Assembly: GCA_900316995.1 (NCBI GenBank)
Contig: ONEZ01000004.1
Location: 1 to 64,000, forward strand
DNA from: an uncultured Bacteroidales bacterium
Lineage (GTDB): Bacteria; Bacteroidota; Bacteroidia; Bacteroidales; Paludibacteraceae
Reading direction: 5' to 3'
Length of the DNA: 64,000 bases
The translations under genes were made by a program, and so were the position numbers. Positions 8,972 to 13,464 of the stretch are shown piece by piece (position 1 is the stretch's first letter; each line of letters begins with the position of its first letter). Below the pieces are notes generated by a model. It was not told where the DNA came from. It did no database searches and worked only from the letters and a program-made list of their open reading frames with translations.

Positions 8972-9004
8972 ATTGAGTTGGCGACAATTTGTCACCAACT
9001 CAAT
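8972..9004 (+). terminator. Strong hairpin after the TPR gene
   Basis: ATTGAGTTGGCGACAA is followed by its near-perfect complement TTGTCACCAACTCAAT (one C-A mismatch). It lies 15 nt after the stop codon. The stem is long but no clear T-run follows, so the mechanism of termination is uncertain. Confidence 0.6.
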
Positions 9005-9120
9005 TAACGTTCAAATTGTCACACTTCTTATTTGAAACTACAAGTTTTTCTTTTTGGGTGATAACAACAGAACACATCGGAGTAAACTCACGTTGTTAAA
9101 AAATGTAAAACAATGCAATT

Positions 9121-9148
9121 ATCTTACTGAATAATTCAGCCGTAAGAT
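9121..9148. promoter_or_regulatory. Dyad upstream of the folded-RNA promoter, possible operator
   Basis: ATCTTAC at 9121-9127 pairs with GTAAGAT at 9142-9148, with a second palindrome CTGAATAATTCAG nested inside. The dyad ends 10 nt before the -7 element and overlaps the expected -33 region, a position suited to a repressor or activator site. Confidence 0.4.
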
Positions 9149-9157
9149 ATTTTTTTG

Positions 9158-9165
9158 TATATTTG
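9158..9165 (+). promoter_or_regulatory. Bacteroidota -7 element (TATATTTG) for the folded RNA
   Basis: Exact TAnnTTTG match. Transcription should start near 9169, giving an RNA of about 290 nt to the terminator at 9457. Confidence 0.6.
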
Positions 9166-9168
9166 AAA

Positions 9169-9457
9169 CGTGAATCTACGTCTTGGGCGCGAGCTATTTA
9201 AGAGTGGGTTATACAGACATATTTAAGGCGTTTATTGGGCGCTCTGTTCTATTGTTTTGAAACTTCGCAACTTTCAGAGATACCTTTAAGAACAGTGCAA
9301 CGGTGAATGCCCTGTGGATATGAGTATTTTTCAGAGCCATACTACAGGCTCTGTGTTTGCTTATATCGGCGTGGGCTTTGCGTTGCCATTCTAAGGTATC
9401 GGGCAATGCGAAGGCCTCAAAACGTGGAACGGCAACAGTTGGGTTCCACGCTTTTTT
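9169..9457 (+). ncRNA. Highly structured RNA of about 290 nt, unidentified
   Basis: Bounded by a TAnnTTTG promoter and an intrinsic terminator, with four successive stems. Stem 1: CTGTTCT 9244-9250 with AGAACAG 9289-9295, closed by GGGC 9237-9240 with GCCC 9309-9312, and an inner TGAAA/TTTCA hairpin. Stem 2: GATATGAGTA 9317-9326 with TGCTTATATC 9358-9367 (two G-U pairs), enclosing CAGAGCC 9332-9338 with GGCTCTG 9347-9353. Stem 3: 9373-9387 with 9402-9416, 15 positions with two G-U pairs and one mismatch. Stem 4 is the terminator. There is no long ORF with protein-like composition across it. It could be a free regulatory RNA, or a terminating leader controlling the NTPase gene 46 nt downstream. 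I see no RNase P, tmRNA or SRP signature and cannot assign it to a family. Confidence 0.65.
9423..9457 (+). terminator. Intrinsic terminator ending the folded RNA
   Basis: CGTGGAAC (9423-9430) and GTTCCACG (9443-9450) form an 8-bp stem with a 12-nt loop, followed by C and six T. It lies 46 nt before the NTPase start codon, so it either ends a separate RNA or acts as an attenuator. Confidence 0.8.
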
Positions 9458-9503
9458 ATGCCTTGATCTGAGCAAATGTTTAACCATACAAATACTAACT
9501 GCC

Positions 9504-10013
9504 ATGAAAGAATTTATCATCATTGCAGGCACACAGAATGCAGGAAAAACCACTTCTGCATGGGCTTTATACCAACGCCTGTTCCCCTATTCAAAAAACA
9601 CCACCCTATTTGTAAATGGCCAATTAACAAATAGCCATGGGGAGTTAGTTTATAACGAACCACCCTACGAAACCCAACTAACTGATTTTAAAGCCATACT
9701 ACACATCTACGGTTATATAGTTGCCATAATAAGCGGAGGTGACTATGACGATTTGCTTGAGGATGAAATAGAATCTGTCATCGCAGAAAACGCTGATTTT
9801 ATAGTAATCTCACTTCGCTCAATTAATAGGGCTGGTTCTTCACGTAGAATGCTTAAAGAAAAGTACAGTCAAAGTTACACAAGGGAATTTTGGGTTCCAG
9901 AAAAAGACATGACATTAACACACCCTGCAGATATTGTCAACCATGTCAGACCTTTTGCCGATAGAATTTCAAACTACATTTTGTATCAAACTGAATACAA
10001 TCAATTAACATGA
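9504..10013 (+). CDS. Small P-loop NTPase of unknown function
   Basis: A 169-residue protein from the ATG at 9504. A longer reading frame from 9357 exists, but its extra part lies inside the folded RNA and its terminator, so I reject it. MKEFIIIAGTQNAGKTTSAW gives a Walker A motif (GTQNAGKTT, residues of about 9-17); ENADFIVISLRS near residue 95 could be the Walker B strand, without a classical acidic residue at its end. No transmembrane segment or signal peptide is seen. I do not recognise the family. It is preceded by the folded RNA and followed after 49 nt by the BspA-like gene, with which it may be co-transcribed. The codon and base composition is more AT-rich than in the flanking core genes. 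Confidence 0.75.
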   Translation: MKEFIIIAGTQNAGKTTSAWALYQRLFPYSKNTTLFVNGQLTNSHGELVYNEPPYETQLTDFKAILHIYGYIVAIISGGDYDDLLEDEIESVIAENADFIVISLRSINRAGSSRRMLKEKYSQSYTREFWVPEKDMTLTHPADIVNHVRPFADRISNYILYQTEYNQLT

Positions 10014-10062: not shown

Positions 10063-13000
10063 ATGAGAAGCATTAGAATTATAGCGATTTTACTACTCAC
10101 AATAACATTTACGACAGTTTCATTAGCTGAGGAATTCATTGTAGATGGAATAAAATATTCAAACCAAGATGGGCAGACCGCAAGAGTGGAAGGTCCAGAA
10201 AACATGAATTATTCTGGAAAACTTGTTATACCAGAAAAAGTAACATATCGTGGCACAGTATATGATGTGACATCAATAGACAGGTGGGCGTTTAGTTATT
10301 GTAAAGGACTGACATCGGTTGAAATCCCTGGAAGCATAACGTCAATTGGAGAAAATCCGTTCGACCGTTGCTCTGGGCTAACATCTATAATTGTAAAAAG
10401 CAACAACGTCTATGATTCAAGAGATAACTGCAATGCAATTATAGAAACAGCAACTAACAAATTAATATCAGGTTGTCAAGCCACAATAATTCCTGAAAGT
10501 GTTACATCAATAGGCGGACAGGCATTCTCAGGATGCACAGGACTTACCTCGATAGAAATACCACAGAATATTACATCATTGGAAAAAGCCTTTACTGGTT
10601 GTACTGGATTAAAATCAGTTCAGTGGAATGCCACAAATTGTGAAGAAATCAGTGATGGCTGCTGGAATAAAAGTCCTGTCGAAAATTTTTATTTTAGCAA
10701 GAATGTTGAAGTCATCCCAAAATACTGCTGTCAAGGGTTAAGCAACATTACATATATTGAAATACCCAGCAGTGTTACCTCGATTGGATATTATGCGTTC
10801 GACGAGTGTTCTGGTATTAATTCCATAGAAATACCAAGTAGTGTCACAACGATAGGAGTGCGGGCTTTTAGAGGATGCTCCAAAATCACAGATATCACAA
10901 TTCCTCAAAGTGTTACAAGAATAGATAGAGATGCATTTCTTGATTGCACAAGCCTGAAATCAGTACAGTGGGATGCAATACAATGCAACACTGATTATAC
11001 TATTTACAGTGGAGAAATATGGGGAAATTGTCCTATTGAAAATTTTAGCTTTGGCAAAAATGTTAAGATCATCCCACGTAAGTGTTGTTATGGCATCAGC
11101 ACTCTCACATCTATTGAAGTACCAGAAAACGTCATTTCAATAAATGATTATGCCTTTTCTGGTTGTACTGAATTAAAATCTGTTCAGTGGAATGCAGTAA
11201 ATTGCGAAAGTGTCAAGTCCACTTGTTGGGAAAGTTGCCCTATAGAAACATTTATCTTTAGCAAAAACGTTAAAATCATTCCAGAAAATTGCTGTTATGG
11301 ACTGAATAGGCTTACCTCAATAGAAATACCAAATAGTGTCACAACGATAGGAGTGCAGGCTTTTCGTGGTTGTACTGGGCTTACATCTATAGAAATTCCA
11401 AAGAATATTACATCATTAGAATCCGCCTTTGTTGGTTGCACTAATCTAAAATCAATTATCTGGAATGCAATAAGTTGTACAGTCAATTCCAAATGTTGGA
11501 ATAATTGTCCTATAAGCACCTTTATATTTAATGACAACATTGAAAATATTCCCAATAACTGTTGTTATGGTTTGAGCAACATCACCTCCATAATCATACC
11601 AAGCAAAGTTGTTTCAATAGGGAAAGATGCATTTGGAGGCTGTACTGGATTAACATCCGTTACTTGGAATGCCACAAATTGTGAAAGTCTTCGTTCGGAC
11701 ACTTGGAACACCTGCCCAGTTGAGAAATTTTATTTTGACAAAAATATTGATATCATTCCAGAAAACTGTTGTTATGGATTGAAAAACATTACATCAATAG
11801 AGATACCAAACAGTGTCACATCAATAGGAGCCTCTGCATTTTCTGACTGCACAGGACTTACTTCTATAGAAATACCCCACGGTATTGTAACTATTGGAAA
11901 CTATGCATTCTCTGGTTGTACCGGATTACAGTCTGTTCAGTGGGATGCCAGAAATTGTGAAGAATTCTTTAAAAACACGTGGGATAATTGTCCTATTAAA
12001 AAATTTAATTTTAGTCAGAATGTTGAAACCATTCCAGATTACTGTTGTAAAGGATTAAGCAGCATTACATCCATAGAAATCTCTAACAATGTTGCATCAA
12101 TAGGCAAATATGCATTTAATGGATGCTCTGGGCTTGTTTCCATAGACATTCCCCAAAGCATTACGTCCGTAGATGTAGCCGCCTTTTCTGATTGTACTGG
12201 GTTAGAGTCAGTTCAGTGGGATGCTACTAATTGTGAAAGTATTTTTAACGGCACCTGGAGAAACTGCCCTGTTAGGAATTTTTATTTTGGCAAGAATGTT
12301 GAGGTCATTCCGGATTACTGTTGTATGGGATTATGCGGCCTTACCTCAGTAAAAATACCCGATAGTGTTACATCAATAGGCAGACAGGCATTCTCAGAAT
12401 GTACAGGACTTACCTTGATAGAAATACCACAGGACATTGTAAATATTAGAAGCAGTGCGTTTTATGGTTGTACAGGATTAAAGTCAGTCCAATGGAATGC
12501 CACAAATTGTCCAAGTGTCGGTTCCAGCTGCTGGAACGAATGTTCTGTTGAAAATTTTTATTTTGGCAAGAATGTTGAAGTCGTTCCAGAGAACTGTTGT
12601 TACGGACTAAAATGGCTAACATCAATAGAAATTCCTAACAGCGTTAATACCATAGGAGCTTACGCCTTTTCTGACTGTGACGGGCTTGTTTCTATAGAGG
12701 TGCCACTCAATGTTACATCCATTGGGAACTACGCATTTCACCTATGTGACAACCTAGAGACTCTTATATGCTACGCAAGGAATCCACCCGTATGTAACAC
12801 TAACATCTTTATGCAAAAGACAAATTCTGTGGTATATGTACCTTGTGAAAGCCTCAGCACTTATAAAAACAACAGCACATGGGGGCAGTTCAATTTAAAA
12901 TGTATAAGCGCCTTACCTGAAGATAACGTTTCAGAGGTGGAAACAGCACCAAAAGAGAAGTCTGTGATTATTACATGGCCAGCAGAAGATGGTGCTGATT

Positions 13001-13464
13001 TATATACTATCGTTATTACCAATGGTGGTGTAGTGGTTTGCACCCTAAAATTTGATTCTAAAGGAGAATTACTCTCAATTGATTATCCAAACACATCATT
13101 ACGAGGAGCTGTATTACAGTCTTCTGTATCAACTGGTGAAGGTTTCCGTTTTGAAATCAAGGGATTGGATCCAGAAACAGAATATAATTACACCATCTCA
13201 ACAAGTTCTGGATCAATCATAATTAATGAAGAATCAGGCACATTTACTACACTTGACCATACGACAAAAGTTGATAGCATTGAAGCAGGCTCTTTACAAA
13301 ATGCAGTATATGTTTCTGGGAGAACTATAACAGTAGAAGGAGTTGACGATTCGTCAGTAAAAATTTTCAATACTTTAGGCCAAATCGTACGCAATCCTAT
13401 CCAAAATGCTGGAGTATATGTTGTAACTGTAGGTAATGAGACCGTAAAAGTAGCAGTACCATAG
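10063..13464 (+). CDS. BspA-like leucine-rich-repeat surface protein with Fn3-like and T9SS sorting domains
   Basis: The 1133-residue product has a signal peptide (MRSIRIIAILLLTITFTTVS). From about residue 30 to 920 it is a run of BspA-type LRR_5 units, with phrases such as IEIPNSVTSIGASAFSDCTG recurring every 23 or so residues and a longer alternating unit ending NCCYGL. A fibronectin III-like module follows at about 955-1060 (SVIITWPAEDGADLYTIVIT). The last 55 residues (VKIFNTLGQIVRNP, then GVYVVTVGNETVKVAVP) match a type A T9SS C-terminal sorting domain. Such proteins are exported by Sec, moved through the T9SS and attached to the cell surface; BspA proteins bind host or co-resident surfaces. 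The T9SS core operon is about 24 kb away. Codons are AT-rich compared with the core genes, which suggests an accessory locus. Confidence 0.9.
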   Translation: MRSIRIIAILLLTITFTTVSLAEEFIVDGIKYSNQDGQTARVEGPENMNYSGKLVIPEKVTYRGTVYDVTSIDRWAFSYCKGLTSVEIPGSITSIGENPFDRCSGLTSIIVKSNNVYDSRDNCNAIIETATNKLISGCQATIIPESVTSIGGQAFSGCTGLTSIEIPQNITSLEKAFTGCTGLKSVQWNATNCEEISDGCWNKSPVENFYFSKNVEVIPKYCCQGLSNITYIEIPSSVTSIGYYAFDECSGINSIEIPSSVTTIGVRAFRGCSKITDITIPQSVTRIDRDAFLDCTSLKSVQWDAIQCNTDYTIYSGEIWGNCPIENFSFGKNVKIIPRKCCYGISTLTSIEVPENVISINDYAFSGCTELKSVQWNAVNCESVKSTCWESCPIETFIFSKNVKIIPENCCYGLNRLTSIEIPNSVTTIGVQAFRGCTGLTSIEIPKNITSLESAFVGCTNLKSIIWNAISCTVNSKCWNNCPISTFIFNDNIENIPNNCCYGLSNITSIIIPSKVVSIGKDAFGGCTGLTSVTWNATNCESLRSDTWNTCPVEKFYFDKNIDIIPENCCYGLKNITSIEIPNSVTSIGASAFSDCTGLTSIEIPHGIVTIGNYAFSGCTGLQSVQWDARNCEEFFKNTWDNCPIKKFNFSQNVETIPDYCCKGLSSITSIEISNNVASIGKYAFNGCSGLVSIDIPQSITSVDVAAFSDCTGLESVQWDATNCESIFNGTWRNCPVRNFYFGKNVEVIPDYCCMGLCGLTSVKIPDSVTSIGRQAFSECTGLTLIEIPQDIVNIRSSAFYGCTGLKSVQWNATNCPSVGSSCWNECSVENFYFGKNVEVVPENCCYGLKWLTSIEIPNSVNTIGAYAFSDCDGLVSIEVPLNVTSIGNYAFHLCDNLETLICYARNPPVCNTNIFMQKTNSVVYVPCESLSTYKNNSTWGQFNLKCISALPEDNVSEVETAPKEKSVIITWPAEDGADLYTIVITNGGVVVCTLKFDSKGELLSIDYPNTSLRGAVLQSSVSTGEGFRFEIKGLDPETEYNYTISTSSGSIIINEESGTFTTLDHTTKVDSIEAGSLQNAVYVSGRTITVEGVDDSSVKIFNTLGQIVRNPIQNAGVYVVTVGNETVKVAVP

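Follow-up and report, generated by a model that had tools for sequence, protein, structure and literature searches.

The window, by which we mean the whole stretch of 64,000 nt analysed here, carries at positions 9158–9457 one copy of an RNA family of about 290 nt (Table 1). The original prediction placed a TAnnTTTG promoter at 9158, and the corresponding box, TATATTTG, is present there. The intrinsic terminator with six T that it described was also recovered, as a hairpin at 9423–9450 followed by T6 at 9452–9457. A simple terminator scan returned two matches, 9227–9243 and 9332–9353, and did not list 9423–9457, presumably because the loop of 12 exceeds the limit of 8. The NTPase-like gene begins with an ATG at 9504, thus 46 nt past the T run as stated earlier; its product matches AAA_14 only below the cut-off (E 0.0035). 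The gene for a very large BspA-type leucine-rich-repeat protein (10063–13464) follows about 50 nt behind the NTPase gene and perhaps shares an operon with it. One element of the earlier description is not supported. The inverted repeat that was called an operator-like dyad reads better as the intrinsic terminator of the upstream TPR gene, because T7 (9150–9156) stands directly behind it; it lies outside the RNA. On the same contig of this genome (C17), 1.5 kb past the window end, there is a second copy (L181) on the opposite strand at 65491–65640.

Table 1. Positions of the RNA element, its predicted parts and the neighbouring features in the window
Feature	Position	Strand	Source or remark
Inverted repeat TATCTTAC (9120–9127) / GTAAGATA (9142–9149) with T7	9120–9156	+	Direct reading
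Promoter TAnnTTTG (-7 box), TATATTTG; start of element	9158–9165	+	Direct reading
P1, variable 5' hairpin	9169–9214	+	MFE fold
P2 hairpin GGCGTTTATTGGGCGCT, within conserved stretch	9227–9243	+	Stem from terminator scan
P3a 5' strand CTGTTCT, pairs with AGAACAG at 9289–9295	9244–9250	+	Pseudoknot stem
P4 hairpin GAAA/UUUC; loop holds CUUCGCA (9263–9269)	9259–9275	+	Stem by eye only
GATACCTT, pairs with AAGGTATC at 9393–9400	9279–9286	+	MFE fold; fastest-varying helix
GCAACG, pairs with CGTTGC at 9381–9386 in predicted OFF fold	9297–9302	+	Helix 4, 96.4% paired
P5, GCCC...GATATGAG with CTTATATC..GCGTGGGC	9309–9376	+	Helices 5–6, 89.2% and 81.5% paired
P5 variable apical hairpin	9332–9353	+	MFE fold, terminator scan
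Putative switch strand 1, GCGTGGGC: 3' side of P5 (OFF) or partner of terminator 3' arm 9445–9451 (ON)	9369–9376	+	
Putative switch strand 2, GTTGCCATTCTA: OFF partner GCAACG; ON partner 9425–9436 (5' arm and loop of terminator)	9382–9393	+	
Intrinsic terminator CGTGGAAC/GTTCCACG with T6	9423–9457	+	Direct reading
NTPase-like gene, small P-loop protein, 169 aa	9504–10013	+	Behind window copy
BspA-type leucine-rich-repeat protein	10063–13464	+	LRR_5, E 7e-165

The element belongs to a multicopy family. By BLASTN, the own genome has three copies, and 19 of 61 genomes gave matches. A covariance model of a 167-position core, trained on 29 copies, finds eight copies in the own genome (83% complete). 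With the same model, matches are present in 154 of 250 genomes and 23 of 33 genera at the level of the family, and in 52 of 295 genomes and 32 of 178 genera at the level of the order. In a phylum-wide draw, made under stricter filters by which weak matches can be lost, the own genome was the single match among 296. Genomes of the family contain up to at least 11 matches, 11 being the number of candidates scored per genome. A pattern scan of GTDB contigs matched at least 116 stretches, of which 80 loci were listed and used here. The titles of 78 of these loci name Bacteroidales, Bacteroidetes or taxa within them, including Candidatus Aphodosoma and Merdivivens, and the remaining two are assigned to an 'uncultured bacterium' (L136) and a 'Clostridiales' MAG (L141). 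In the latter case, the 3' end of the element lies at the very edge of the contig (positions 1–56), which is perhaps a mis-binned Bacteroidales contig. Many titles among the listed loci name rumen or faecal samples, and the element is therefore a regulatory RNA that is common among bacteria of the gut and rumen. The pattern scan of viral contigs gave a single match (L178, 428–591) on a contig of 85.7 kb classed as viral, which could be a prophage flank; a phage collection yielded one partial match only, covering 23% of the query, and a plasmid collection none to the element. Removal of identical cores reduced 161 copies to a non-redundant set of 156.

The claim of a strongly folded RNA is borne out by the folding energy of -111.5 kcal/mol, compared to a mean of -79.5 (sd 4.6) for shuffled sequences (z -6.9, 0 of 200 shuffles equal); the complementary strand folds less well (z -4.1). 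The four consecutive stems proposed earlier make up only part of the fold; the structure conserved among the copies consists of a long-range helix, nested stems and a pseudoknot. Homologues with compensatory changes, named earlier as the check on the prediction, are present in large numbers. Already in a MAFFT alignment of 29 copies made without reference to the structure (unfitted), both sides have changed in 16 of 30 RNAalifold pairs. In an alignment of 100 copies, which was fitted to the covariance model and hence favours the model structure, 86.8% of the cells are paired versus 72.4% when dealt at random, double-change cells number 609 versus 232, and the covariation score is 0.453 versus 0.202, with 0 of 500 shuffles reaching these values; 28 of 35 pairs show double changes. 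Slid controls in the same alignment give 27–45% pairing. For 97 of the 100 rows, the exceptions being the window copy, L073 and L123, no training row is 90% identical over 80% of the length. The clearest helix connects the loop of P4 with UGCGAAG at 9407–9413. It is 99.7% paired in the 100 copies, has 48 double changes at each of two pairs and is also found in the unfitted alignment. The stem formed by 9244–9250 and 9289–9295 crosses this loop helix (9263–9269/9407–9413), making a pseudoknot. For this stem (P3a), own partners pair at -12.0 kcal/mol versus -8.7 for swapped partners, and none of 2000 permutations reaches the own value in 153 copies. Helices 2–3 (GATACCTT/AAGGTATC) are paired in 59.8% and 85.6% of the cells, the 9279–9282 side being the weakest. 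P2 occurs in the variants GCGTC/GACGC and GCGTA/TACGC, as judged by eye and not by a formal count. A long-range pairing of the P1 5' strand with a switch strand, seen in the first alignment, was discarded, as it is lost in many copies when the upstream regions are compared by eye.

The ends of the element are conserved together with its fold. The promoter motif stands 85–150 nt ahead of the core in 122 of 153 copies; a control stretch farther upstream has it in 7 of 153, and the reverse strand of the 85–150 nt region in 6 of 153. Similarly, 149 of the 156 non-redundant copies have a T run behind the core where one is expected, and seven have none there. The element also has a one-sided orientation towards the following gene. 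Of 80 copies, 76 allow a call for the longest ORF that follows, and in 75 of these it shares the strand of the element; in the remaining one, L105, the sequence behind the element is 372 nt long. The genes in front are on the same strand in 40 and on the opposite strand in 35 cases (75 callable of the 80). This count took 80 of 86 rows, omitting L141, both rows of L098 and the weak second rows of L110, L132 and L076. In all of 30 loci, the first listed ORF behind the element is on the plus strand. The distance from the T run to the start codon has a median of 70.5 nt, with quartiles of 50 and 95 (140 copies, ORFs of at least 80 aa), while 5 of the 156 copies have, by the rule used, no ORF on the same strand behind them and only short opposite ones. 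The original prediction had left the choice between a free regulatory RNA and a terminating leader. It is the leader that is borne out by these counts; judged by its sequence context, the element is a cis-acting leader.

Two strands in the 3' half of the core could pair in two ways. Strand 1, GCGUGGG(C), has its complement in the 3' arm of the terminator, CCRCGC. Of the seven-position cells in 151 copies, 94.4% pair with the own arm, versus 93.2% (sd 0.19) after reassignment of the arms among the copies, and 0 of 1000 reassignments reach the own value; all 151 copies, kin included, entered these permutations. The effect is small because 127 of the 151 strands are identical, and the support comes from 24 variant copies, some of them kin. 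Compensated variants include GTGAG/CTCAC (L194, L208, L211), GTAGG/CCTAC (L198) and GTAGG/TCTGC (L021). GTGGA is found with TCCAC in seven copies, and TCCAC occurs with GTGGG too. L210 is a counter-example, and mismatches are kept in L182, L200, L019 and L030. The set comprises 151 of the 156 copies (L116, L082, L183, L184 and L185 were dropped), and the script seems to have misplaced about 12 of the 151 terminator arms; it also misplaced L209, a copy that pairs by eye. Strand 2, GUUGCYCGUUC, has its complement in the 5' arm and loop of the terminator (GGACGAGUAAC). Paired with the terminator of its own copy, strand 2 gives a duplex of -14.6 kcal/mol, versus -10.9 for swapped and -6.8 for shuffled partners (152 copies, 0 of 2000 permutations), with the same result for 136 dereplicated copies, though permutations overstate independence because related copies share both strands. 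Examples are GUUGCC/GGCAAC in the window copy, GUUGUCGUUC/GAACGACAAC in L091 and GUUGUUCGUUUC/GGGACGGACAAC in L087. When complete folds are compared, the one with the terminator (OFF) is favoured over the one with the antiterminator (ON) by a median of 5.6 kcal/mol, the pseudoknot not being counted, and the ON fold is lower in energy in 22 of 149 copies. The two folds are thus close in energy, as a switch requires. Altogether, there is strong sequence evidence that mutually exclusive terminator and antiterminator folds are kept across the copies.

We therefore consider it probable, at roughly 80%, that the element represents a transcription-attenuating 5' leader with a terminator/antiterminator switch. 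RNA polymerase would start at the TAnnTTTG promoter and make the pseudoknotted sensor domain. As long as this domain is intact, the switch strands GCGUGGGC and GUUGCYCGUUC would stay paired with upstream strands, the terminator hairpin would form and transcription would end before the gene, typically 50–95 nt short of the start codon. If the sensor domain opens or never closes, the first of these strands would pair with the 3' arm of the terminator and the second with its 5' arm and loop, to make one long antiterminator, and the gene behind would be read. The leader position, the sensor fold, the pseudoknot, the terminator and the exclusive antiterminator are supported by the sequence evidence given above, whereas we infer the switching of transcription itself and which of the states is the default. 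The trigger would be a small molecule or an ion bound directly by the RNA, and a small-molecule riboswitch is our first guess.

The genes behind the leader are diverse. The 146 first proteins form 99 BLAST clusters, the largest of 13, and no neighbouring protein common to the copies, in the manner of guide RNAs, retrons or toxins, was seen among them. Type III toxin-antitoxin systems are made of RNA repeats, a terminator and a toxin; their tandem RNA repeats precede the gene, whereas a search of the window from 9000 to 9600 found 0 tandem repeats. A Pfam scan covered 132 of the 146 proteins in two parts (67 and 65), and we considered the best 25 of 73 and the best 25 of 52 families. The commonest family is the BspA-type LRR_5, with 10 of 132 proteins (6 of 67 and 4 of 65). 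Others among those listed, mostly with one or two members, include glycosyltransferases, polysaccharide export proteins, fimbrillin, an outer-membrane barrel, DNA methylases and a NusG. Two related NusG-like proteins, as judged by eye, are encoded directly behind the leader copies of L087 (1507–2313) and L200 (1764–2450). In the own genome, the genes behind the copies encode the NTPase, an FdtA/cupin sugar enzyme, a BspA protein and a DNA methylase, while four of the eight have no Pfam match at E 0.01. By a crude rule, 86 of the 146 proteins behind the leader have N-termini of the exported type; among the other genes in these loci the figure is lower, at 211 of 539 (Fisher p 2e-5). The window copy, L179 and L180 are mutual nearest relatives among the labelled copies and precede unrelated genes, suggesting that leaders have been copied to new genes. 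Recombination may explain how a leader reaches a new gene.

In a variant of the attenuator explanation, whose probability is contained in that of the latter and does not add to it, a protein or a trans-acting RNA works on the sensor fold; we regard this as a serious possibility while leaning against it. The diverse genes, enriched in exported products, suit a global regulator better than a metabolite, and for the riboswitch reading it is unusual that the genes behind share no pathway. Against such a factor, the first proteins behind the copies have no family in common, and the two candidates that we considered, a NusG paralogue and an RRM protein such as RbpB, were rejected as required factors. 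UpxY/NusG paralogues control capsule-operon leaders in Bacteroides, and resemble the present case in that termination in an untranslated leader is relieved to read surface genes. Yet, although this control relies on a second, specialised NusG, 10 of the 16 carrier genomes examined have one match to PF02357 (NusG) and six have two or three (very divergent paralogues could be missed), so that a capsule-type NusG paralogue seems not needed; moreover, few polysaccharide genes are found behind the element among the Pfam families listed. Among 32 hand-picked genomes, RRM matches and the element looked almost exclusive (2 of 16 carriers versus 15 of 16 non-carriers), but the even draw of 295 from the order gives a negative association only, with RRM matches in 19 of 52 carriers versus 179 of 243 non-carriers (Fisher p 1e-6). 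The order-level RRM and element counts come from two draws that agree in size and in handles. With RRM matches absent from 33 of the 52 carriers, RRM proteins seem not needed either, and the negative association may reflect ancestry. The FopS/GibS RNAs of Bacteroides thetaiotaomicron likewise form, in the part of PMC11697453 available to us, a multicopy RNA family with a terminator in Bacteroidales, but FopS sRNAs are about 65–70 nt long, carry their seed in a single-stranded 5' part and bind RbpB, whereas the element is about 290 nt long, pseudoknotted and placed in cis, and most of its carriers (the 33 just mentioned) have no RRM match. Since NusG and RRM proteins are seemingly not required and no fixed leader ORF is found, we place direct sensing by the RNA first and another factor a close second.

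Three further explanations can be considered. A free regulatory RNA acting in trans, with incidental read-through, would be released by the element's own promoter and terminator as an RNA of about 290 nt; it would not need to face the next gene, as in 75 of 76 copies, or to keep an antiterminator, and we consider this reading unlikely. It is even harder to regard the element as mobile DNA or the end of a cassette, with a fold that serves DNA movement. Many copies per genome and the close kinship of the window copy, L179 and L180 before unrelated genes would suit such an origin, but the one-sided orientation and the conservation of promoter, terminator and antiterminator would not, the searches of viral contigs and plasmids returned one match and none, respectively, and, where a genome has several labelled copies, the nearest relative of a copy lies in that genome for only 8 of 24. 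The least likely of the readings is leader-peptide attenuation, in which the fold would depend on a ribosome translating a short ORF. ATG-initiated ORFs of at least eight codons do start 5–105 nt before the core in 93 of 153 copies. Their ATG positions are spread, however, with a broad rise 40–80 nt before the core and none at a fixed place, and the 5' region varies in both length and sequence. The attenuating leader with a terminator/antiterminator switch remains our preferred reading.

No Rfam 15 family matches the element, and the open-access papers searched hold no description of it (preprints, most subscription papers and supplements lie outside this search), so that the designation as undescribed stands in this scope. 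At the gathering score, there are 0 matches in the window and three in 20 loci, none of them on the element. When thresholds were relaxed for the window copy and for L085, the copy of the cultured carrier Bacteroides caecigallinarum ET12, chance-like matches appeared, the best with E 0.018 on the other strand and outside the RNA. Near another copy of the element, an Rfam DUF805b cis-regulatory motif lies at 916–951 on the minus strand of L012. Among earlier surveys, the text of PMC2864571 available to us reports 104 motifs, including Bacteroid-trp, Bacteroidales-1 and Bacteroides-1, which are likewise structured RNAs from the same phylum or order. The Bacteroidales motifs of that part which have an Rfam accession do not match the element, and Bacteroides-2 and the GUCCY-hairpin, having no accession, fall outside the comparison. 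PMC8040213, as far as its text was accessible, reports 3161 candidate RNAs from human microbiomes, and an earlier partial listing of the RNA in its supplementary motif lists is possible. In the accessible portion of the main text of PMC11109978 and PMC8632094, the Bacteroidales genus names searched for do not occur. As far as its sequence goes, the element shares with riboswitches that have a terminator/antiterminator platform the 5' leader, a covarying sensor with a pseudoknot and exclusive folds. It differs from orphan riboswitches in matching no Rfam class, in the absence of a coherent gene set and in its length of about 290 nt. The kind is thus a known one, an attenuating and riboswitch-like leader, and the member is new within the literature and the Rfam 15 release searched.

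The RNA is real, widespread, unlisted by Rfam 15 and cis-acting. A common RNA of this sort, missing from Rfam, would bring many functionally uncharacterised genes under a shared regulator, and the covariance model, the strand assignments and the compensated variants make direct tests simple. The gene set is unlike that of a metabolite switch, and the signal could therefore be a general one. We tentatively propose, with the odds somewhat against it, that an order-wide class of RNA switches reads one global state of the cell directly and has been copied before unrelated accessory and surface genes. If this is true, a single signal would, with no protein regulator involved, gate a large and constantly changing share of the Bacteroidales genome.
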